A DNA stretch of 22,434 nt from a virus: positions 1 through 22,434 of IMG/VR virus record IMGVR_UViG_3300010430_000488. The stretch is one strand, 5' to 3'. A program made the translations under genes and the position numbers. Positions within the stretch are counted from its first letter, which is position 1. Each line of letters starts with the position of its first letter. Positions 1-21,426 of the stretch are shown here, in pieces. Below the pieces are notes generated by a model. It had not been told where the DNA came from and ran no database searches. It worked only from the letters and a program-made list of their open reading frames with translations.

Positions 1-1560
1 TCGGTAGAAGTCAGCCCAAAATTTATACCTGTTGACGGACCTATCGCTATGGTTTGTGAAACTGTACAATTTGTAAAATCTATAACCTCTAAAAGATATG
101 TGTCAGGAGATAAAGCGGATATTGATTGCGTAGTTGATGGGTCATCTATCACCGAATAAACCACCGCACTTGTATTAATATTTGTTAGTATATAATCAAA
201 TGGTCCGGCTAATGGTGATGAACCAGCAGTTAAAGTTACATCAATAACCCCATTATTATTTCCACAAGTCCCACTTGTAATAACAGAATTTACAATAAAC
301 TTAACAACGTTATTTATAGTGACATCTGTACTGTATGTACAAAGACCATTTTGAGTAGATATGGTCACAGTATAAGTATCAGAAGGTAAATTACTAAATA
401 CGTGTGACTGTGATGACGTACTAATACTTTGTGTGGAACCTAAAGAATCAGTTATCGTATAAGTAATAATACCCTGAGGAGCACTAATTGATATTGATAT
501 TGAACCGTCATCATTACAATCAGAATTGGTTGAATTAATATTGACCACTGTAAACCCTGCAGTTGATGTTATTGTTTGAAATGAAGTAATATTACATCCA
601 CCCGCGTCTGTTACGATGGTAGTGTTAGGACCACCACATAAACCTGTAAACGCCTCACTTAAATTATTTGACGTAACTACATCACCTCCGCTATTTTGAT
701 AAGTATATGGTGCACTTCCACCTGATATAGTTAAAATAACTGTTCCGTCACACTGAAAGCAATTAGCTTGAGTTGGTACAGAAGAAACCACACCTAATGG
801 TGGTGCAGTATTAATAGTGAATGACTCAGTTGCAATACAACCATCACTATCGGTTACCGTCACCCCCCAATTACCTGGCGATAACCCCGTCGCAGTTGGT
901 CCCGTTTGTCCATTTGTCCAAAGGTAAGTATATGGTGGAGTACCACCTACTAAATCAATTACACTGGCAGAACCCACATTTCCACCACATGGCGAACCAT
1001 CAACAATAAGAAGATTAAATGTTATTGGTGTACTTGGATTAATTACCACATTACTTGTTTGAGCAGTTGACCCACCAAAATCCGTCACAATAACATAATA
1101 GGTACCCGCAATTAAACTAGAGAATGTGTGATTAAGGAAAGCTATATTGTTATCTGTTTGTAGTATCGTCCCTGTGTTACCATCATATAGAGCATATGTA
1201 AATGGTGACGATATTGAATTATTTGTCACGACTATTTGACCACTGTTAGCTATACCACATGTAGTATCAGTAGAAACTGTAGACGCACTAAAACAACCCT
1301 CTACATTAACATTAATAGTTATATCGGCGTTTATCCCACCTGAACTATCATTTACAATAAAAACATAACTACCCTCTTCAACTCCACTCCAACTAAAAGG
1401 TCCGTTTCCTGTTTGAGATGATAATAAAAATCCTCCCGAAGCGGTTGTTGATGTATTTGTGATGGTATACGGCTTAGTACCTCCTGAAGGACTAATAAGT
1501 ATAGTACCAAATTTAGGATTATCACAAGTACCTGTAACTTCAAAACTATAAGTTAAAGGA
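1..1560 (-). repeat. Tandem SprB-like/Ig-like protein repeats in the tail adhesin
   Basis: At least six imperfect repeats, approximate bounds 1560-1296, 1295-1020, 1019-801, 800-549, 548-300 and 299-1. They share the scheme C-x(2-6)-G-x-I/V-x-V, then GGT/S-x-PYTY or an equivalent, then L-x-x-G-x-Y-x-V-x-V-T-D-x-x-G-C. The third copy (core 947-837, 37 residues) matches the length and pattern of the SprB repeat of flavobacterial gliding adhesins closely. The repeats are divergent at DNA level, so they are old rather than recently duplicated. Confidence 0.8.
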
Positions 1561-4559
1561 CCTTCGTCACAATCTGGAATACATGGGTCTGTACTAACCA
1601 CTACCCCTTGATACGGATATGTTGTGTCTAAACATACCGATAAACCTATTTGAGTACCTTGAAGTGTATTACCACAACAATCAGTAAAAGTAAAAAACCC
1701 ATCAGTTACACCTGAAAAACATCCAATAGTTTCACAACTCGTACAATTAGGAAACGGACCAACTTGGTTGGTGGCGTCACTAATCGGTTGAGAGGTAAGA
1801 ACATTAATCTCCTCAACTGTATAACAATCCCCTGAAAGATTGTAAACTTCATTTCTATTTCTACCACCAGTTTGAACATAAATAACATTTAACGGTGTTT
1901 GTATATTAAGTAAGAAACCATCTAAAGATGATGATACAACTGCCGGAGTGAAATTACTAACCGTAGGGTCAGTTAATATACCAAAGTGTTTAAGTCCTGA
2001 ACCCTGTTGGTATTGAGCAGGTAAATTTTGATAGGCGGTCGTTCCGGTAAGTCCAGAATAAACATTAGTTCTGGTTAACGCACTAAAATTTAAAAATTGT
2101 GGACCAACAAAATTAATATTATTTCCATAAGTAGATGAGAAAGTCGACGCATCAATAGTGTCCCCCTGAGAAGCAGCAACCGAATGTAAAGCAAATGCTG
2201 GCGTTTGTCCTGCGTTAGATATCACCACAGGATAAACTAAACCGTTTATAGTCCCACCACTTTGTCTTACTTCGTCCCAAACTTGTAAATATGACTCATA
2301 ATCATACTGAAATCTATCAGTATATTGTGTTACCGCATTACTTTGCCAATAAGTACCCCTTAAATTAAATGGTAAATCATATATCTGCGCCGATTTATCA
2401 TACGCACCGGTATAAAGACCAACGTAACTATCGGCCTCATCTATAACGAAAATTGATATGTAATTCGTTTCCTGACCTGAGAATGTACCTGGACCAGTAG
2501 TCGAAGAACCATCTAAATCACTATTACTAAATGGTACACCATTACTTCTACTATCGGAAATCGCGTATGGACCTGTTAAGTTATACCCTCTATTAATTCT
2601 TCGGTAAATATCTCCAGCAGTTACCTCATCGTTAAATTCTGATGATTTAGGTACACATTCACCACCAACATTTGATGAACACCAACCGGCATCATAAATC
2701 GAATTAGAAACGGGACTATTAAATTCATTAATTTGAACTCCATTAACTGTACCCCCACTTAATGAACCTAAATACGGATAAGATGCCCACCACATCCAAT
2801 TCTCACCATTTCTTGAGGTTTCTCCAACAATACCTTCATATAAATTATTTGCCGCTAACTCCCCAAGAATTACTTTATCATTATACCAAGTACGTATAGA
2901 CTCCGAGGCTTCTTCAGCTTTTGCTGAATCTAATGATGTAGCGTCATAAAAAACAAAAACTTTTTGACTTTTACTTGTCACCTCACAACTATCTAATTTG
3001 TCTGCCAATGCACTAAAAGAGGACCTTGTTGGTGTAGGTGTAGGTGTTTGTGTCGGCGTTGGAGTATATATCGCACTACTCGTAGGTGTTGGCGTGTATG
3101 TCGGTGTCGGTGTTGTTGTCGGTGTTGTTGTCGGTGTTGTTGTCACCGTAGGAGTCGGTGTCGGCGTGGACCCAACACATACAGCGTCATCACACCTTAT
3201 CGCAGTACTTACTGAGGATAAATTATCCCAATAAGTGATGGTTACATAAGGTTCGAAAAGTGGTTCATTAATTCTAGTGTAACACCCATTAACCCCTCCA
3301 ACATCTTCAAATAAATGAACATTACCTAAATTATATGGTCCTGAAAAATCATTATCAAAATCTATAACATTAAATCTAAATATTTTGTTACCAGTACAAC
3401 CTGAAAAAAAGTAATATTCCTCTAAGGGATTTACATTATTATTACAGTCAGCACAATTTTCATAAACGTTTGTTATTTCATGTACTGATTGTATAGTAGT
3501 ACTTATTAGTACTTGGTCAACTTTATCCGTTTCACCACCATAACAGAACGTCTTACTTTTAACGAATTGCGGTGTTATAAATCCAGTTCCAAGCGGGTTA
3601 CCCCACGTTAACGTTGAAGCACTAAAAGGGGATTGCCCTTGATTTACCCCGTTACAATCATTACCAGATGGTTGAAATTTATATATATTATTAAATGGAT
3701 TATTAGAAACACAATCAGAACAATTAGAATACCAATTTGATACTATGTCGTAATAACCAACACCTAAAGTACCTGAATAAGGTTGTTGAGCATTATTAGG
3801 TTTTAAACACGGACCCCCCCATATTGAAGAATATGATTCTACCCTATTCCTCATATCACCAGAATATTGTATACCACTCGAATCTGTTATTAAATTACCG
3901 TAACAATCATCGGACATAGTAACCCACCCATCATATAAACTGTTAAAGTAGTTTTTGGCGTTTGTTGCGAAATAAGGTATCTGTACGTAATACGAACCTA
4001 AACCACTTACTAAGTCTGATGTAATAGAACTAGCACTATTAAAATCATAATTTAAAACCCCATCATTAGTAATGTGACTATAATCATTTACACTTGTTAG
4101 AAAAATAAAATCATACCTATTAGTATCCGCGCCACCTATTACTTTTGATATATCATTAAACGTATTTGCACTATAAAAATTAGTACTGTATCTAGGAGAT
4201 TTAAATGTACCACTTGGACCTATTACATCAATATAGTTTTGAGCGAAAAATGTTGTATTAATATTAAACGTTGAACCTATATAAACCGCAACTGAAGTAT
4301 CTGATACCTTACCCCAATATTCACCTGTAACCATTTGAGTATCAAAAGGGATTGTTGCTGAACCTAAATTTGTAAGTTTCCAATATCTTGACCTAAATGA
4401 CCAAGTTGTATCAGGGTTACTAATCAGATGATTTTCCGTAAACGTTCTACTTAATCCTGCGGGTGTAGCGGCATCGGGCCAAGCCATATATACGGTAGAA
4501 CCTGTAGTTGGTGAACCTACAGTGGCTATTTGTTCTAATTTAAAATATAAAGTCGCCAT
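1..4559 (-). CDS. Giant multidomain tail adhesin/fibre with Thr-Pro linker and SprB-like repeats, 3' end outside window
   Basis: I read this frame codon by codon from the ATG at 4559 to position 1 and found no stop, giving at least 1519 residues. The N-terminal part (1 to about 460) starts MATLYFKLEQIATVGSPTTG and carries two NCxDC motifs. A Thr-Pro linker follows (465-511). Next is a globular region (about 528-850) with vWA-like features (KVFVFYDATS, YISIFVIDEAD). A cysteine-rich spacer has NCTSC and CC. From about residue 1000 to the window edge there are at least six tandem Ig-like repeats of 80-95 residues, one of them a near-canonical SprB repeat (GGTPPYTYLWTNG ... VTVTDSDGC). The gene is coupled to the gp7-like gene by a TAATG overlap, so it belongs to the tail operon. 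It is likely the distal host-binding protein. The vWA and receptor-binding roles are inferences. Confidence 0.85.
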   Translation of the reverse strand, partial: MATLYFKLEQIATVGSPTTGSTVYMAWPDAATPAGLSRTFTENHLISNPDTTWSFRSRYWKLTNLGSATIPFDTQMVTGEYWGKVSDTSVAVYIGSTFNINTTFFAQNYIDVIGPSGTFKSPRYSTNFYSANTFNDISKVIGGADTNRYDFIFLTSVNDYSHITNDGVLNYDFNSASSITSDLVSGLGSYYVQIPYFATNAKNYFNSLYDGWVTMSDDCYGNLITDSSGIQYSGDMRNRVESYSSIWGGPCLKPNNAQQPYSGTLGVGYYDIVSNWYSNCSDCVSNNPFNNIYKFQPSGNDCNGVNQGQSPFSASTLTWGNPLGTGFITPQFVKSKTFCYGGETDKVDQVLISTTIQSVHEITNVYENCADCNNNVNPLEEYYFFSGCTGNKIFRFNVIDFDNDFSGPYNLGNVHLFEDVGGVNGCYTRINEPLFEPYVTITYWDNLSSVSTAIRCDDAVCVGSTPTPTPTVTTTPTTTPTTTPTPTYTPTPTSSAIYTPTPTQTPTPTPTRSSFSALADKLDSCEVTSKSQKVFVFYDATSLDSAKAEEASESIRTWYNDKVILGELAANNLYEGIVGETSRNGENWMWWASYPYLGSLSGGTVNGVQINEFNSPVSNSIYDAGWCSSNVGGECVPKSSEFNDEVTAGDIYRRINRGYNLTGPYAISDSRSNGVPFSNSDLDGSSTTGPGTFSGQETNYISIFVIDEADSYVGLYTGAYDKSAQIYDLPFNLRGTYWQSNAVTQYTDRFQYDYESYLQVWDEVRQSGGTINGLVYPVVISNAGQTPAFALHSVAASQGDTIDASTFSSTYGNNINFVGPQFLNFSALTRTNVYSGLTGTTAYQNLPAQYQQGSGLKHFGILTDPTVSNFTPAVVSSSLDGFLLNIQTPLNVIYVQTGGRNRNEVYNLSGDCYTVEEINVLTSQPISDATNQVGPFPNCTSCETIGCFSGVTDGFFTFTDCCGNTLQGTQIGLSVCLDTTYPYQGVVVSTDPCIPDCDEGPLTYSFEVTGTCDNPKFGTILISPSGGTKPYTITNTSTTASGGFLLSSQTGNGPFSWSGVEEGSYVFIVNDSSGGINADITINVNVEGCFSASTVSTDTTCGIANSGQIVVTNNSISSPFTYALYDGNTGTILQTDNNIAFLNHTFSSLIAGTYYVIVTDFGGSTAQTSNVVINPSTPITFNLLIVDGSPCGGNVGSASVIDLVGGTPPYTYLWTNGQTGPTATGLSPGNWGVTVTDSDGCIATESFTINTAPPLGVVSSVPTQANCFQCDGTVILTISGGSAPYTYQNSGGDVVTSNNLSEAFTGLCGGPNTTIVTDAGGCNITSFQTITSTAGFTVVNINSTNSDCNDDGSISISISAPQGIITYTITDSLGSTQSISTSSQSHVFSNLPSDTYTVTISTQNGLCTYSTDVTINNVVKFIVNSVITSGTCGNNNGVIDVTLTAGSSPLAGPFDYILTNINTSAVVYSVIDDPSTTQSISALSPDTYLLEVIDFTNCTVSQTIAIGPSTGINFGLTST
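3027..3167 (-). repeat. Thr-Pro-rich linker of the adhesin with 12-bp tandem repeat
   Basis: The minus strand encodes about 47 residues that are mainly TP and TTTP units (residues 465-511), interrupted by SSAIY. Within it the plus-strand 12-mer GGTGTTGTTGTC is repeated three times exactly at 3109-3120, 3121-3132 and 3133-3144, each unit encoding TTTP in frame. Such linkers act as extended stalks and may be glycosylated. The whole-codon unit means copy-number change would keep the frame. Confidence 0.9.
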
Positions 4560-7528
4560 TAATTACATTGAATTTGTACATTTACACCAACATTTACTGT
4601 TAGAGTTTTATCTGTGAATTCAGGGTCACATCCTGTGTTACTTACTGTCAAAATATTATTAGTATCTATAGTATAGTTTAAACCACTTTGATATAAATAC
4701 TGTAACTTATCATTCAATGCATTAATCCACTGAGAAAATGTCGGATAATCTTGTCCACCAAACCCCTCATAAAATTCTTCCTGTACTAAAACCGTGGAAT
4801 CTAATCTTACATCAACAAACCACTTACTAGTTAAAGTATTCTGAATACAATCATTAATCGTATAACCTGATTTAGCGATACAACTATTTATACTATTATT
4901 TAGTAATGTCGGTATTGAATTAATGTTAACGTCACATGTTAATGTTTCATCAATACAATCATTGTCAAATAACCTACCGTAGTATATACAAGGTATACAT
5001 TCCACAAGTATAAGTTGACACCCTCTTTGTCTTCTCCAAACATGTTTTTGTCTTTGTAATACATTATTTACCATTTTCTGACCACCCATCCATATAGTCG
5101 AAGCAGGAATCATTTGTTCTACAAGTTTTGTCCAATAATCACCAATACCTAAAGTAAAATCAATCATCTTTTGGTATGTGTATTGATTTGATGGTATGTT
5201 TACCGCAGAATCGGACTGTAAGTATTTCCAATATATCGATTGTAGTGTTGGATAACTGTTCACCGCACCATCACTAATGGTTTGTCGGTTTCTTACATTA
5301 ATTAATGTACTGTAAAAAGTTTGAGCAAACTCGAAAAATGTTTTTTCTTTCGGTAATGGATTAATAGTTGTCCAATCTTGACCGCCAGGTGATGGGTAAG
5401 GTGATGTTAACCCTGACGATGGAAAAGGGTAATTATAACGTCTTGACATTCTCCATATATCGTAAGTAATACCTTGAGCCATGTTTAAATACAATTCAAC
5501 ATTTTTAGCGTTAAGTACTAATTTTTCATCAAATACTTCATAATAAGCATTATATTCCCCATTACGGTTTCTTCTTATACCCGTTTCAGTATCGTCCCAC
5601 GACTTATTATTATCTATAGTTCGGGTCAGGCCAAAACCAATATTCATATATGGGAATTTTCTAAATCTATCGAAATATTTTTGACCGTAAGTAAAAGTCT
5701 CCAAGGAGGTTTGAATACTAGGGTTCGCACCTGTGAATGTTGAATTTGTGATATCAAGTTTTTCGATTGCTCTATGGTCTGGAGTCTCAATATACCAACC
5801 CGCACCTTTCTCAAAAAAGTATTCGTTATTAGTTACGGGTCTTTGAGGGTAACCGTATTTATTCATAGGGTAATCGTCTCTATTTTCCTCAGTTTGGGTC
5901 ACGTATTTTGATGTAGTAAATCCAGTGTAGGGTACCCCCTGTATATTATAAACGACTGAAGGGTCTAATGCGGGTACATCATCAACTTTGGTACCTCCCG
6001 ATATTTTTAAGAACTCACCCTCAAACCTTTTTACGTTTATTGGACCATCAGCAATATATACAATCTCATTAAACTCAATTAAATCTTTAGGGGCTCCTAC
6101 CATTCTCATAATTGCCTCAATAGAATGTCTAGTACCTTTAGATTTAAACAAATAAGCCGAGTTTAATATCAAATTCCTATAAAATTGATAATTTAATTGA
6201 TTTGGTGTTGGGTCGTTTTGAAATCCTGAATAAATAGATTTATTTTTAGAGCCAAATATAGAAGTTAAGAAATCTTCGTTAGTTATTGGTGAGATATTAG
6301 TATTCCACCCTAAGGTCTGTGCCAAATTTTGTAATAATTCAGATGGTATATCGTTTTGGGGCGTATAATGTACTGAATTCATAAACGATAACGCGTCTAT
6401 AAACTTTTTAGACTCATCAAAACTTCTACCATATATTTGTAGTACTTTTTCAACTTTTTTATCTCCCGTATCAAAGTCTTTAAATGCTCCTGTAGTTAAA
6501 AATCTAACAATTAAATCGGTCTTATATCGGTCAATAACTTCACCGATTTGACTAACCTGAGTAAGATAATTATCGAACCTTAATGTCGATATATCTAAAT
6601 TCCAAACACCTAATTTAGGCCATGTTACTCTTTTTTTACTTTTTATAAATTGACCATCATCAGATTCCTCAACTAAATCAAACGTTGAGGTATAAGGTGG
6701 GTTACTAAATCTATTTAATAGGAAGTCCTCAATTTCATCAAAGTCTTCTTTGAATGTAAATTCAGTTTGAAACGTATTTGGCCTCAATATTAACGTATCC
6801 GTAGAAGCAGTTAACCCACTAAACGGATTACCTTGTACACTTACCGTAACGGTACCCGCCGAAACATTTTGTGATGCCCTAAAATTAACAAACGGATATT
6901 CAGTTTCCATATCATTAACATACAACGCGTATTTATTGTAGTTACTTGTCATATCCCTTAAAGGACTTATAGGGTACGGTCTAACCGATATATTACGAGC
7001 CGCGTTTACTGAGTAATCAATATCAAAAGGATTATTAAATCTAGTTACATCCATCGTAAATGTCGTTACTTGTTCGACACTATCAAACGTTATATTATTA
7101 GCGGTATTAGCACTACTATATGATGGTAATAAAAGTCGATTAACTTGTATTGACGCAGGAAAGAAATTTATTATCCTCGTAATCGATGACGATAACCTTT
7201 TCTGTAACGAACCATAAAGTGCGTAATTCGTGACCTGACTAATATCATAGTTAGGGTAAACTCTATAATTTTTTATCGCTATTGCTCGAGACTCTTCAAT
7301 ACTATTAACATCAAGGTCCTTTAAAGATATTGGATTACTAAAGACACCTGTCTCAAATGTTCTATTAACTTTTTCAACAATATTAGTAGAAAACTCAAAG
7401 TTACCTTGTGTTAGTCCCCCTCCCGCAACCACTTGAAGCCCCACTAAATCAGGTGAAAATGATTGGTCCGCACTTGGAGGTGCTGGTGGGTAAAAATACT
7501 TCTTAGTATTGTTGTTATTTGTAGCCAT
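4559..7528 (-). CDS. Baseplate protein with P2 gpI / T4 gp7-like region (989 aa)
   Basis: A helical stretch at about 335-390 (IDRYKTDLIVRF through KKFIDALSFM) is followed by ELLQNLAQTLGW (about 397-408), then by NLILNSAYLFKSKGTRHSIE (about 449-468) and AIMRMVGAP. The LA-x-x-LG and KGT-x-x-x-(I/L)E signatures are those of the tail-protein-I family (P2 gpI). T4 gp7 carries a comparable STKG element, and its length (1032 residues) is similar. gp7 and gp6 form the trifurcation unit of the wedge, so this protein is the likely gp7 counterpart here, although separated from gp6 by several genes. The last 150 residues hold a cysteine cluster beginning near 837 (RGCQLILVECIPC). The stop overlaps the adhesin start by one base (TAATG). 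Family-level assignment is my reading of motifs and has not been checked by a profile search. Confidence 0.7.
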   Translation of the reverse strand: MATNNNNTKKYFYPPAPPSADQSFSPDLVGLQVVAGGGLTQGNFEFSTNIVEKVNRTFETGVFSNPISLKDLDVNSIEESRAIAIKNYRVYPNYDISQVTNYALYGSLQKRLSSSITRIINFFPASIQVNRLLLPSYSSANTANNITFDSVEQVTTFTMDVTRFNNPFDIDYSVNAARNISVRPYPISPLRDMTSNYNKYALYVNDMETEYPFVNFRASQNVSAGTVTVSVQGNPFSGLTASTDTLILRPNTFQTEFTFKEDFDEIEDFLLNRFSNPPYTSTFDLVEESDDGQFIKSKKRVTWPKLGVWNLDISTLRFDNYLTQVSQIGEVIDRYKTDLIVRFLTTGAFKDFDTGDKKVEKVLQIYGRSFDESKKFIDALSFMNSVHYTPQNDIPSELLQNLAQTLGWNTNISPITNEDFLTSIFGSKNKSIYSGFQNDPTPNQLNYQFYRNLILNSAYLFKSKGTRHSIEAIMRMVGAPKDLIEFNEIVYIADGPINVKRFEGEFLKISGGTKVDDVPALDPSVVYNIQGVPYTGFTTSKYVTQTEENRDDYPMNKYGYPQRPVTNNEYFFEKGAGWYIETPDHRAIEKLDITNSTFTGANPSIQTSLETFTYGQKYFDRFRKFPYMNIGFGLTRTIDNNKSWDDTETGIRRNRNGEYNAYYEVFDEKLVLNAKNVELYLNMAQGITYDIWRMSRRYNYPFPSSGLTSPYPSPGGQDWTTINPLPKEKTFFEFAQTFYSTLINVRNRQTISDGAVNSYPTLQSIYWKYLQSDSAVNIPSNQYTYQKMIDFTLGIGDYWTKLVEQMIPASTIWMGGQKMVNNVLQRQKHVWRRQRGCQLILVECIPCIYYGRLFDNDCIDETLTCDVNINSIPTLLNNSINSCIAKSGYTINDCIQNTLTSKWFVDVRLDSTVLVQEEFYEGFGGQDYPTFSQWINALNDKLQYLYQSGLNYTIDTNNILTVSNTGCDPEFTDKTLTVNVGVNVQIQCN

Positions 7529-15100: not shown

Positions 15101-17243
15101 CCCTCTGATTTATTAAGTTTATTGACTGAGGTATACTAGTGTTAACGGTAGTTCTAACGACTTTTGTTCCAAGAAAAGGTGTTTTACTTAATGCAAATGG
15201 ACTTTTAATCATTGCGGGACTAGGATTATAATACCCTTCTTCAATTGGATATTCAGGGTCAAAACCTGAAAACATAACCATATTATATTGTTCAGCATAT
15301 CCCTCACCATCACTACTGTTCCCATAACAATTATAACATTCATTACCACCACCAGCACACTCAATTGGTTCATAAGCACCTATACTAACAAAATCAGATA
15401 AATCACTGTTATTAGCATTTTCAAAGGCAACCTCAAAACTATCAATGGTATCATTACCCTCAACCTCATCCATATCAATATCTTCACATGAACACGCCTC
15501 ACAGTCAGGATAAGTAATCATAGGTAAAGTTAACCTCTTAAAGGGGTTTTCTTTTGACATTTTCTTTAAACCCTTTTTATCACAATCACTTTTTTTAACT
15601 CTTCTACTAAAAATCGCAATTGCTTTACATATTAATTTTATTATCGGATTTAAAATCATCACGAAAAAATTAACAATAGCCCTAACTATAGGATATAATA
15701 ACGCCAATACATGCATTATTGGTATAATTACAAAAATAACAGGAGATATTACAGTTAATAATATATTAAATACGAAGTATATAAAATCAAAGTTTCTTTG
15801 TCCGTCATTTATTGGAAAACGATTATTCTCACTCGCACATTGTTTATCTAATATTTCTTTTATCCCATAATGAGACGCCCTACCAAGACCATATTTCCAA
15901 CGGTCTATGTGCGCCGCAGTCGTATAAACTTTATTAAATCCAAATAAATAAAATGTATCTTCACATTTTATTGCTGCGTCTTTATCATAATAATCTGACC
16001 AATCTAATGAAAAAGAATAAGACTTATTTAAGTCTTTAAAGGAACCACCACTTGATGGTGAACTATTACCCCAATGTTCTTTAATATTTGGTATTAAATA
16101 ATTGGCTCTCATGATTTGTGATTGTAACCCCGCCTCATTCTGCCATTTAATTTTAAACCTATATTTAGATTTAGTTGGTATACCTATTGTTGGGTCAACT
16201 GAAATTACTCTCTCACCAAATTCATTGGTGGTCATATAGTCCAAATTCATTGGTAAATCTATTAACCAAGCTCCGTTATCATCAACAACATTACCCCCAT
16301 CTTCTAACTGATACTGTTCAAGTACGGGGTCACCATTTACATCTTCCTCGATTGTGTGTCTTATAGCTAAAATTTCTCCAGGACCCGCGGCAGTATCACA
16401 TAAATTACCTGTATCATTTTTGGGTCTACAAGTGGCTTTAATATATTCATCATCTGTCGATGAAAAAATTGAACCCATAAAAACTGAATGAGGAGTAATT
16501 TCGATTCCTTGGTCTGATAAATCAAAATCAACTCTAGTTATTCCAACATCACACATTTCATCTTGACCCCAAAACGAACTAACGTCAATATCTTTTATTT
16601 CATTTACTATTTGAGGTAACGATGATAAATCCTTAGAGTCTTTAAATAATTGACCACTAAATTGTGATTTTACCCCCCTACCCATTCTTATTAAATCAGA
16701 TGGTCTTAATGAAAACTCACCAATATTAGATAAATCTAAATCCATTACAATTTTTTGACTACCTAACGGTACACCAACAATCATAAAATCCCCCGAATCA
16801 TTAGTTCTTACAGAATACTTATAATACTTTTCATAAACTTGTAAAACTTCTTTACGAGTTAACACATCATCGACTGATGGGAACGTACCCGTCGCGTTGT
16901 GACCATAGTATTCGTCTTTATAAGGCAATAAATTATATCTATAACCGTCCTCATTTTTAGTCGTAGGGGTTTTATATGGATATAAAGTAGAAATGATTGG
17001 GTCATTTTCATCTACACTGTCTAAGGGTATGAAAATAGATATATGGGCATTAGGTATACCGAACCCACCGTTGGCTATGACACGTCCAACAACAACCCCA
17101 TAATCAGCACAAAACTGAGTGTATAGGTCTTCTTGTCTTAATTTTAAAGATAGAATCTCTAAAGAATCAAAATCTTGGTCAATTTTAACGTTAATATTTC
17201 TATCAACACCAGGTTCTGTTCTTATTCTAATAGATTTTGGCAT
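12129..17243 (-). CDS. Very large baseplate-region structural protein with transthyretin-like domain and hydrophobic segment
   Basis: This 1704-residue protein is not assigned to a named T4 protein. Residues about 50-170 look like an interrupted carboxypeptidase-regulatory/transthyretin-like domain: VVVGRVIANGGFGIPNAHI with a long insertion, then TNDSGDFMIVGVPLGSQKI. Residues about 485-545 are almost entirely hydrophobic (for example VISPVIFVIIPIMHVLALLY), enough for two or three membrane-spanning helices, and are followed by a basic SRRVKK. A cysteine-rich stretch (about 578-640, with CEACSC and CYNC) follows. The rest is Asn/Gly/Ser/Tyr-rich, as in peripheral virion proteins. It follows the gp6-like gene after a 71-base gap containing a hairpin and overlaps the next gene by 8 nt (ATGGGTAA). 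Its place suggests a baseplate wedge or hub-periphery protein. The hydrophobic stretch is unusual for one. Confidence 0.6.
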   Translation of the reverse strand: MPKSIRIRTEPGVDRNINVKIDQDFDSLEILSLKLRQEDLYTQFCADYGVVVGRVIANGGFGIPNAHISIFIPLDSVDENDPIISTLYPYKTPTTKNEDGYRYNLLPYKDEYYGHNATGTFPSVDDVLTRKEVLQVYEKYYKYSVRTNDSGDFMIVGVPLGSQKIVMDLDLSNIGEFSLRPSDLIRMGRGVKSQFSGQLFKDSKDLSSLPQIVNEIKDIDVSSFWGQDEMCDVGITRVDFDLSDQGIEITPHSVFMGSIFSSTDDEYIKATCRPKNDTGNLCDTAAGPGEILAIRHTIEEDVNGDPVLEQYQLEDGGNVVDDNGAWLIDLPMNLDYMTTNEFGERVISVDPTIGIPTKSKYRFKIKWQNEAGLQSQIMRANYLIPNIKEHWGNSSPSSGGSFKDLNKSYSFSLDWSDYYDKDAAIKCEDTFYLFGFNKVYTTAAHIDRWKYGLGRASHYGIKEILDKQCASENNRFPINDGQRNFDFIYFVFNILLTVISPVIFVIIPIMHVLALLYPIVRAIVNFFVMILNPIIKLICKAIAIFSRRVKKSDCDKKGLKKMSKENPFKRLTLPMITYPDCEACSCEDIDMDEVEGNDTIDSFEVAFENANNSDLSDFVSIGAYEPIECAGGGNECYNCYGNSSDGEGYAEQYNMVMFSGFDPEYPIEEGYYNPSPAMIKSPFALSKTPFLGTKVVRTTVNTSIPQSINLINQRERYFNTLSDGSSNPTQNRMRVEVRNNQFATLPNPPSNPSPNQTFNRYEDMPIIIVTDGNVDYTPGQLLAFVDSELIEDPNVNNTGLTVNQYGFQSISGTMVSNPSAYIQKNITYANPSGSGSLTKQLYLYSPIDGNSYNFKSGMEYYQVIGKKTIDEATGGTQSVNNKYESILHTYLLDYRQIHLCQDNFTFGGGSATFTAYSKKPRDYFDSFGSQNIYFLTRGVDPYSPRQTMSFDLSKLFGGNYGDPNYSSQFTFTGEYYPNIPIQYNSNVADEYTPKQHFQLNGGNNPEFFDTNNTDTDLFHSSFLFTPSTQPLGGTGTTANLGAYSSFTSTGLSYYSSLGTEWDNLIWGTTAIGSNGETVDTDTVNVGSGEQYEYMSVNSYQDSGIYPLHFPQGRIDGASYQWTNKSPKDAFNNSNHKNYTVSPSYFAGNATAPEMGMINSTKLVFRSDRLPTSSNRDTGPLKGYLQDFPLHLNESFMIYTISDTGQSTGVPNSGGNTATDSSGAGGDFNADPNSNALPNGVLESFTCNGLKVLGCYNGSGDDFAVSDPCDDDDRTQGGCYVFVDNPLVISIPKDFKFFLEWRTRFRFMFGACRGVIGHMFQNNWVNGTLYMPSFQKKTFYDSDNEVKRYKFCGDSQSQQGWFGSDSKKNCGPIYFNTDTNSFFYRSAPYYQGNFKPQTQCDGGTFGGLMTIGANEGNIWQPTTIMDLGPKTDFLKEILLTPEFQGYIIDEVESTSYQDVSGILNLFIISRLIDASFLEQLLSAKDASIQTLFSRDGGGDIRQRFFDSRVDGDYAQMCSINTEFGTLPYLSGNYLDEISVAGGIFGIWFTGSTISEFDQIPTVGDRRILGPGQITFAENPPLNQITANEFNYPGTQVVPFYTWEYQNGDLWGGEENTWHTQDCIVERYQDEKFDGANGYPKPSSGLPTGYIFNRPINDYPGNGAPNGTNDGYRVGSPFQNYFGLKKGKSAMNLFITKYMFNADLNG

Positions 17244-19719: not shown

Positions 19720-21426
19720 TTAACCTTCACATGCAACACATTGTAAATCATTTAAATTTAATTTTTTTCTAGCAAATGCTTGTGCTGAGTTCATTGAATG
19801 TTGATAATATAGTGTTTTTACCCCTAACTTCCATGAGTCAATAAGTAACTTATTTACATCTTTAGTCGGCATTTCAGGTGAAACCATTAGATTTAATGAC
19901 TGTGATTGGTCTATATAATCCTGTCTTATTGCCGCTTGATTAATAATTGATGACTGATTAATTTCTGCAAATGTTCTAAAAACATCTTTTTGTTCGTCAC
20001 TTAAAAAATCTAAATGTTGTACCGAACCATCTCCCTTTTTTATACTATCCCAAGTCTCTTTGTTATCTCGACCCATAGACTCTAACAATTCTTTTAACAC
20101 TGGATTTTTTATAGTTACCTTCATTTTAGCAACATCCTTAACATAACAGTTAGACCAAATAGGTTCAATAGATTGTGATACCTGACCAAGAATAAACGCC
20201 GATGAAGTAGTCGGAGCAACTGCATTAAGTGTTACGTTTCGTCTACCATAACCTTTTAGATATTCAGGTTCCCCAAATATTTCAGCTAACTCCTCTGATG
20301 CCTTATACGATTTATCTTTAATAGTTTTAAATACCTCAACGTTAAGTTTAGCAGTTTCTCTTGTATCAAAAGCCAACCCTTTTGATTGTAAAAGTGAGTG
20401 CCAACCTAAAACACCTAAACCAAGTGCCCTTTGTCTCTTAGCAAAGTTATAAGCCTTTTCCATATAAAGAAACGCCATTTTACCTTCTCTGGTACCATTG
20501 TCTCTTAATTCTTCTAATTTATTACAATACTCAGTGACTACCGCATCTAAGAAATAAACCATAGTTTCAACAGCATCGGTGTCTTTCCACTCATCATAGT
20601 GTAATACATTCATTGAAGATAATACACAAACAAATGATTCGTCTTCAGAATTGTGTAGAGCTATTTCAGAACAAAGATTGGAATTATAAATTTTAGCCCC
20701 TTTATCTTGGTAAACTTTAGGTGCGTTATTATTCATCGTGTCATGGAACATGATATATGGATAACCTATTTCACCTCTTCTTTGGATTACTTTTGCCCAT
20801 ACTTTTCTTTTATCATCATCACCGGCAATCATCTCTTGCATGAACTTATCGGTTACCGTCACTGCGTGTGTCAAATCTTGGATTGAAGCACCTTCTGTAC
20901 CAATCTCTAAAAACTCCATAATGTCTGGATGTTCAACAGGTAAGTAAGGTGAGAATCTACCTCTACGTGTCGCCCCTTGTGAAATATTATCTACGACACT
21001 TTGAAAAAGATTCATAAAGTGGACCGCTCCTGGAGCATGTCCGTTATCAGTTATCTTAGCTCCACGACCACGAATGTTACCGAAATACCCTGAAGTACCT
21101 CCACCCATTTTACTCATCTCACCAACCTCAGCCTGAGTAAATAGAATTGACTCTATACTATCACTGACATTAGAACCAAAACAACTAACAGGTAACCCTC
21201 TTTCTTTACCAAAATTTGCCCATACTGGTGATGATAGTGAATACCACCCTTTACTCATATAGTCGTAAAATTTATCGGCGAACCCTTCTTTACCTAATAG
21301 TTTTTCTGCATGTTCCGCAATTGTTTTTATTCTATCTAAAGGTTCCTCACCCTCACTCAAATAACCTCTACGAAGAAACGTAACTGATTCTTCATTAATC
21401 CAATTAAATGGTTTTCTATTTTTCAT
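19720..21426 (-). CDS. nrdA: Ribonucleoside-diphosphate reductase class I, large (catalytic) subunit NrdA, short form
   Basis: This is the catalytic alpha subunit, which reduces ribonucleotides using a radical passed from NrdB. All catalytic features are visible in 568 residues: C82 in LPVSCFG and C267 in FVCVLSSMN form the redox pair, N250, C252 and E254 lie in SNLCSEIAL, Y540-Y541 in KTLYYQH form the radical-transfer pair, and the C-terminal C563-x-x-C566 reloads the active site. GATRRGRFSPYL (151-162) lies in the substrate-specificity loop region. The protein is much shorter than E. coli NrdA (761 residues) and starts almost directly with the catalytic domain (NWINEESVTFLRRGYL), so the N-terminal ATP-cone is missing. 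The ATG at 21426 is preceded by an A/T-rich stretch without Shine-Dalgarno sequence. It is followed 25 bases downstream by a strong terminator, so nrdB-nrdA end one transcription unit. It is probably functional. Confidence 0.98.
   Translation of the reverse strand: MKNRKPFNWINEESVTFLRRGYLSEGEEPLDRIKTIAEHAEKLLGKEGFADKFYDYMSKGWYSLSSPVWANFGKERGLPVSCFGSNVSDSIESILFTQAEVGEMSKMGGGTSGYFGNIRGRGAKITDNGHAPGAVHFMNLFQSVVDNISQGATRRGRFSPYLPVEHPDIMEFLEIGTEGASIQDLTHAVTVTDKFMQEMIAGDDDKRKVWAKVIQRRGEIGYPYIMFHDTMNNNAPKVYQDKGAKIYNSNLCSEIALHNSEDESFVCVLSSMNVLHYDEWKDTDAVETMVYFLDAVVTEYCNKLEELRDNGTREGKMAFLYMEKAYNFAKRQRALGLGVLGWHSLLQSKGLAFDTRETAKLNVEVFKTIKDKSYKASEELAEIFGEPEYLKGYGRRNVTLNAVAPTTSSAFILGQVSQSIEPIWSNCYVKDVAKMKVTIKNPVLKELLESMGRDNKETWDSIKKGDGSVQHLDFLSDEQKDVFRTFAEINQSSIINQAAIRQDYIDQSQSLNLMVSPEMPTKDVNKLLIDSWKLGVKTLYYQHSMNSAQAFARKKLNLNDLQCVACEG

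Follow-up and report, generated by a model that had tools for sequence, protein, structure and literature searches.

A tail-fibre-like protein with a core of seven SprB-type repeats in a large group of uncultured phages

The tail gene cluster and its terminal repeat protein

The window analysed here is an entire IMG/VR record, a genome fragment of 22,434 bases in which all the main genes (NrdB, NrdA, P0009, P0008, P0007 to P0002, and P0001) are carried on the minus strand. Two baseplate wedge homologues lie upstream of the fibre-like protein P0001, one of the gp25/GPW type (P0009; 19160..19621; PF04965, E 1.6e-11; phrog_261, E 7e-18) and one of the gp6/Baseplate_J type (P0008; 17315..19153; PF04865, E 4.3e-7; phrog_219, E 2.2e-21), confirming a first-pass annotation that had placed the repeat protein next to baseplate genes. 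These are followed by P0007 (12129..17243), a tail-cluster protein of 1704 aa, and by four conserved tail-cluster genes, P0006 (10379-12136), P0005 (9526-10395), P0004 (8444-9526) and P0003 (7531-8439). P0007 has a long hydrophobic segment at residues 485-545 (window 15609-15791; 19-aa hydropathy 2.63), as does its counterpart in one relative (L369), and this segment is possibly membrane-active. The cluster ends with P0002 (989 aa; 4559..7528) and P0001 (3..4559), the latter running for 1519 aa up to the contig end, with its C-terminus missing. Base 4559 is common to both genes and, because of this stop/start overlap, translational coupling is plausible; the earlier annotation had given the coupling as fact, of which the shared base is the part observed.

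The SprB label applies only to the C-terminal third of P0001. In the residues before it (1-997), an N-terminal module is followed by a Thr/Pro linker, then a second module and finally a Cys-rich domain. The N-terminal module (residues 1-460; 3180..4559) occurs in six of the 80 core-carrying loci described below, among the matches listed, and is an add-on of the sub-group to which the window belongs. The Thr/Pro-rich linker, evident in the sequence (residues 464-513; 3021..3170), leads to the second module (about residues 528-945; 1725..2978), which is present in the window and in the L007, L008 and L114 types, and absent from L010/L011, where the remainder of the protein is closely similar. 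A VWA domain was considered for this module and rejected, as there was no profile match, and AlphaFold2 gave no usable fold for residues 1-946 (pLDDT 29). The small Cys-rich domain, recognisable by a CFSG...TDCCG pattern (1569..1721), opens the conserved core.

In a whole-protein profile search P0001 matched Pfam PF13573 (SprB) with E 3.4e-19 and 68.6 bits, against a gathering cut-off of 28; PF13573 was the only domain family of Ig-like type to reach its cut-off there, the wider set of Ig-like Pfam families that had also been suggested giving nothing else. A genome-level search located PF13573 matches at six places between residues 171 and 1508, two of which exceed the cut-off alone. A phage-repeat profile resolved six complete repeats at residues 1002-1509, at 62-70 bits each, and found no repeat match in 200 shuffles of the repeat region. 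Repeats 1 to 6 span window positions 33-1568 (repeat 1, 1296..1568; repeat 2, 1041..1295; repeat 3, 795..1040; repeat 4, 552..794; repeat 5, 291..551; repeat 6, 33..290), the third and fourth being those that pass the Pfam cut-off alone, and the first 10 residues of a seventh, cut at the contig end, occupy 3..32. The claim that at least six SprB-like repeats end the protein was therefore correct, with the start of a seventh to be added.

Conservation, descent and predicted structure of the core

An alignment search, in which loci were chosen by similarity to the seven-repeat core, recovered at least 80 core-carrying viral loci. Among the matches listed, the core lies immediately downstream of P0003-P0002, in the same order, in 80/80 loci, P0002 being the conserved upstream neighbour, and the order gp25 - gp6 - P0007..P0003 - P0002 - core is maintained. 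All 80 of these listed loci have P0002 and P0003, 77 have P0004, 76 P0005, 75 P0006 and 68 P0007. In nearly all of them P0002 ends in an overlap with the start of the core gene or no more than 31 bases from it, and one locus has an extra gene in between. A homologue of the contractile tail sheath was found in 8/8 large relatives of 120-297 kb, mostly just under the curated cut-off; the gene lies beside baseplate wedge genes and its syntenic relatives carry a tail sheath, a context appropriate to a tail fibre.

Every array among the matches listed has seven repeats (80/80). Where both flanking domains could be recognised the number was again seven (60/60), and the spacing between these domains was 622-649 aa in 59/60. 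Since these loci had been picked by core similarity, the count was redone on 80 loci picked by P0003 alone. The repeat gene was present in 41 of the 42 that had more than 6 kb downstream, and all 37 complete arrays had seven repeats. The exception (L316) derives from the same contig as another locus (L113), in which the gene at the fibre position leaves the contig end before any core, and an apparent six-repeat array in L369 proved to have a weak first repeat (E 0.56), giving seven once this was counted.

The C-terminus missing from the window could be retrieved from relatives. Full genes on viral contigs encode 1607, 1625, 1919 and 2083 aa, and complete relatives of the window's elaborated type range over 1589-2134 aa. 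Their alignment gives the full order as N-terminal module, Thr/Pro linker, second module, Cys-rich CFSG domain, seven repeats, C-terminal domain, second Thr/Pro linker and variable tip; by analogy, the window's own protein would continue with the rest of repeat 7, the C-terminal domain and a tip. The conserved unit is a core of about 770 aa, consisting of the small Cys-rich domain, seven Ig-like repeats and the C-terminal domain. Many relatives have core-only genes (706-772 aa), and for this reason the core can be regarded as the conserved unit of the gene and the remainder as added; among relatives, the additions at the ends range from none to more than 2000 residues.

Repeats of the array descend by position. 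For 167 of 168 repeats, drawn from 24 phages, the nearest relative is the repeat at the same position in another phage, and identity is 35-48% within a position and 23-27% between positions. In an IQ-TREE tree of a smaller set each position class needs one change, with branch support varying from 0 to 97 on an alignment of 74 columns, which is few for branch support. Because the repeats cluster by position, the array was assembled before the phage group diversified, with number and order kept since, and, judged by its sequences, it is an old lineage of its own and not a recent host copy. A topology test that placed all phage repeats in one clade gave p-AU 0.756, by which a single clade is neither shown nor rejected, and of the proposed comparison of phage with bacterial repeats it is thus the position-wise descent within phages that is established.

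Structure prediction of the repeats, also suggested with the first-pass annotation, was performed on the core of one complete relative (L101, with 14 sequences). The AlphaFold2 model is an all-beta string of Ig-like beta-sandwich domains (Ig-like/Fn3 fold), mostly at pLDDT 75-90 in the repeats, and at a pTM of 0.27 the arrangement between domains and the overall shape are not predicted. The best solved-structure matches found by Foldseek were three pieces (9flp, 9flw, 9fly; E 6.7e-19 to 9.5e-16) of the GhpA grappling-hook protein from Aureispira sp. CCB-QB1, a filament on the bacterial surface that runs to thousands of residues. Its Ig-like string is similar to the modelled core, at 14-18% identity, and the phage core gave no sequence match to GhpA at E 0.01. 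VIA-align ranked fibronectin-type strings top (Fn7-10, Z 12.7 over 304 residues, rmsd 19.0 across several domains). A fold held in common shows no function.

The C-terminal domain of P0002 (4562..4855) and the one that closes the P0001 core in relatives are homologues (hhalign probability 96.9%, E 1.9e-10), and two copies of the domain were found by hmmsearch in 47/81 loci among those listed. It may be a common attachment or oligomerisation domain. Profile matches of P0002 itself are weak (one member matches Tail_P2_I at E 0.28 and two match DUF2612 at E 0.035), and its gene position suggests an adaptor between baseplate and fibre, similar to gpI of P2.

Bacterial SprB-repeat proteins and the presumed host

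The best 80 bacterial matches to the repeats are all from Bacteroidota. SprB and the T9SS-exported SprB-repeat proteins of that phylum belong to the same family and have similar Cys and Gly-Gly-x-x-Pro-Tyr motifs, but their architecture differs from that of the phage proteins. Complete bacterial ORFs have 2-44 repeats each, a hydrophobic N-terminus is common (50/87), and two bacterial controls gave matches to sorting domains, one to TIGR04183 (type A; 60.7 bits, over the cut-off) and one to TIGR04131 (type B; 29.4 bits, below the cut-off of 35). The phage proteins, in contrast, have seven repeats and neither sorting domain nor signal peptide: no T9SS sorting domain exceeded the cut-off in two complete relatives (L101 and L119), the window's own C-terminus being missing, and none of 80 phage core genes has an N-terminal signal peptide (P0001 hydropathy 0.37) when this is defined by hydropathy alone, as a 19-residue stretch of at least 1.6 within the first 40 aa. 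Neither the CFSG domain nor the C-terminal core domain was found in the bacterial repeat ORFs from the matches listed.

SprB repeats are also known from a fucoidanase, which is not an adhesin (PMC7698502), and from T9SS substrates located close to polymorphic toxins (PMC7073777), so their presence does not by itself identify a gliding adhesin. The designation 'host-type adhesin repeats' used in the first-pass annotation is thus accurate as to repeat type and overstated as to 'host-type adhesin', given the fucoidanase and the old, separate lineage of the phage array. A 642 kb sequence filed as 'uncultured phage' (LR756502.1) encodes a SprB-repeat protein of the bacterial exported kind (L016:6561-11585), with a signal-peptide-like start and, as read by eye, a gliding-type C-terminal end.

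The top viral structural match was A0A6J5LD72 (E 1.3e-54; 29% identity across the aligned stretch), a 'SprB repeat' protein of an uncultured Caudovirales phage in UniProt/BFVD. At 714 aa it has the length of a core-only gene, carries none of the modules and linkers seen in P0001, and very probably represents the same core. A literature search found no paper describing A0A6J5LD72, none that joins 'SprB repeat' with 'bacteriophage', and none on a fixed seven-repeat array. Hence, phage proteins labelled 'SprB repeat' already exist in UniProt, while the fixed seven-repeat array of SprB type appears to be undescribed in the literature searched.

A Bacteroidota host is likely for this phage group, because the best 80 bacterial repeat matches are all from that phylum and the phages lack Shine-Dalgarno sites. 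Shine-Dalgarno motifs precede 2.2% of genes in the phage group (2.7% in shuffles), compared to 3.3% in Bacteroidota loci (4.2%), 4.0% in Flavobacterium phage immuto (4.1%) and 28% in Microcystis phage Mel-JY01 (10%). Few Shine-Dalgarno sites are also seen in some other bacteria. The earlier suggestion that the repeats point to the host phylum is upheld as a likelihood of this kind. Searches found no isolates with P0002, P0003 or the core, and no host link for the group; P0003 had no match in 395 Bacteroidota genomes, a result that is uninformative without a positive control. Two other genes were considered as host indicators and dropped. The closest matches of NrdA (19720-21426) are phages of Sporosarcina and Staphylococcus, at 61-64%, and not phages of Bacteroidota; the gene has probably moved laterally and is uninformative on the host. 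Full-length matches of gp6 are distant (26-27%); they come from one phage each of Flavobacterium and Microcystis and from a huge uncultured phage, and SprB repeats occur in none of the three.

Probable role of the protein and alternative explanations

A large group of uncultured contractile-tail phages probably shares a conserved tail-fibre or fibre-stalk protein, of which P0001 would be an elaborated form: a fixed-length rod of seven domains with exchangeable ends. The core rod would consist of the seven Ig-like SprB-type domains, with the Cys-rich domain capping one end and the C-terminal domain at the other. P0002 and P0001 would employ their shared type of C-terminal domain in the same junction or oligomer, through which the rod may be anchored at the baseplate, projecting outward at a fixed length, and flexible Thr/Pro-rich linkers at both rod ends would bear the exchangeable modules, these being the likely binding tips. 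We likewise infer a virion location for the protein, which end of the rod is distal, and the use of the rod as a spacer. Of the roles put forward in the first-pass annotation, that of a long stalk is the one favoured, given the fixed seven repeats, the Ig-like string and the swappable ends.

A length that never departs from seven units, together with core-only genes without an obvious tip, would also suit a structural tail component of fixed length, such as a whisker, collar, baseplate strut or decoration, in place of a receptor fibre. The weak PDB profile matches are indeed to phage decoration and neck-whisker proteins (5lxk, E 0.00055; 8zvi, 0.0031; 9occ, 0.0041), but Ig-like matches this weak show no function. 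The large modules that are swapped at either end in many relatives, the further large fibre-like genes that lie directly downstream of the core gene in relatives, and a position at the end of the baseplate cluster all accord better with a fibre, and the structural reading seems rather unlikely.

It is less probable still that the SprB-type repeats themselves recognise the same ligands as host adhesins do, or that they associate with the gliding/T9SS apparatus of the cell surface. The same repeat family occurs in Bacteroidota surface proteins, the fold matches that of the GhpA filament, and a role as phage receptors in Bacteroidota has been proposed for gliding adhesins (PMC13288928). However, repeats that formed an avidity surface should differ in number between phages or remain similar to one another, and here the number is fixed at seven while positions have diverged to 23-27% identity; no T9SS sorting domain exceeded the cut-off in the two complete relatives, and none of the 80 core genes has a hydrophobic signal peptide; and it is the ends that vary and are swapped, as receptor-binding parts would be. 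The earlier proposals that the repeats share ligands with host adhesins, mimic them or interact with the gliding machinery are thus not supported. One speculation, to which very little weight can be given, is that the rod engages the host's moving adhesin/T9SS apparatus; it might, for instance, pair with SprB-type filaments of the host and in this way hold the virion on a gliding cell or let it be carried along. Mis-assembly of a bacterial adhesin gene with phage DNA, or recent uptake of such a gene from the host, can practically be dismissed even though repeats of this family otherwise typically belong to Bacteroidota chromosomes, because the gene occupies the same site in 80/80 viral loci from many datasets (among the matches listed), which rules out a chimera, and because its flanking core domains are in no bacterial repeat ORF examined and its repeats descend by position within phages, which, together with synteny, rules out recent capture.

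Ig-like domains on virion proteins are of a known kind, and on phage proteins they are usually regarded as scattered add-ons. Ig-like or Fn3 domains of phage fibres, tail-tip and decoration proteins were among the viral structural matches, several in number. Unlike these, the SprB-type array with its position-specific descent forms the conserved core of the gene: exactly seven Ig-like domains are the heart of a tail gene in a widespread group without isolates, in a repeat family whose bacterial members vary from 2 to 44. The fixed rod length becomes a testable property, the seven-repeat core makes a fibre locus recognisable in many uncultured phages, and the core together with P0002/P0003 provides a handle for finding their hosts.

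Other features were seen in the relatives. The fibre-position protein of L115 (12937-19959) has a VWA domain (PF00092, E 2.7e-15) among the parts added to the core, and DxSxS motifs like those of this domain occur in the fibre-position proteins of L113, L114 and L116. Two relatives carry a second, shorter SprB-type repeat gene (550 aa) elsewhere in the sequence (L129:2654-4306, and near 87116 in G004), which in L129 adjoins other Thr/Pro-rich genes.
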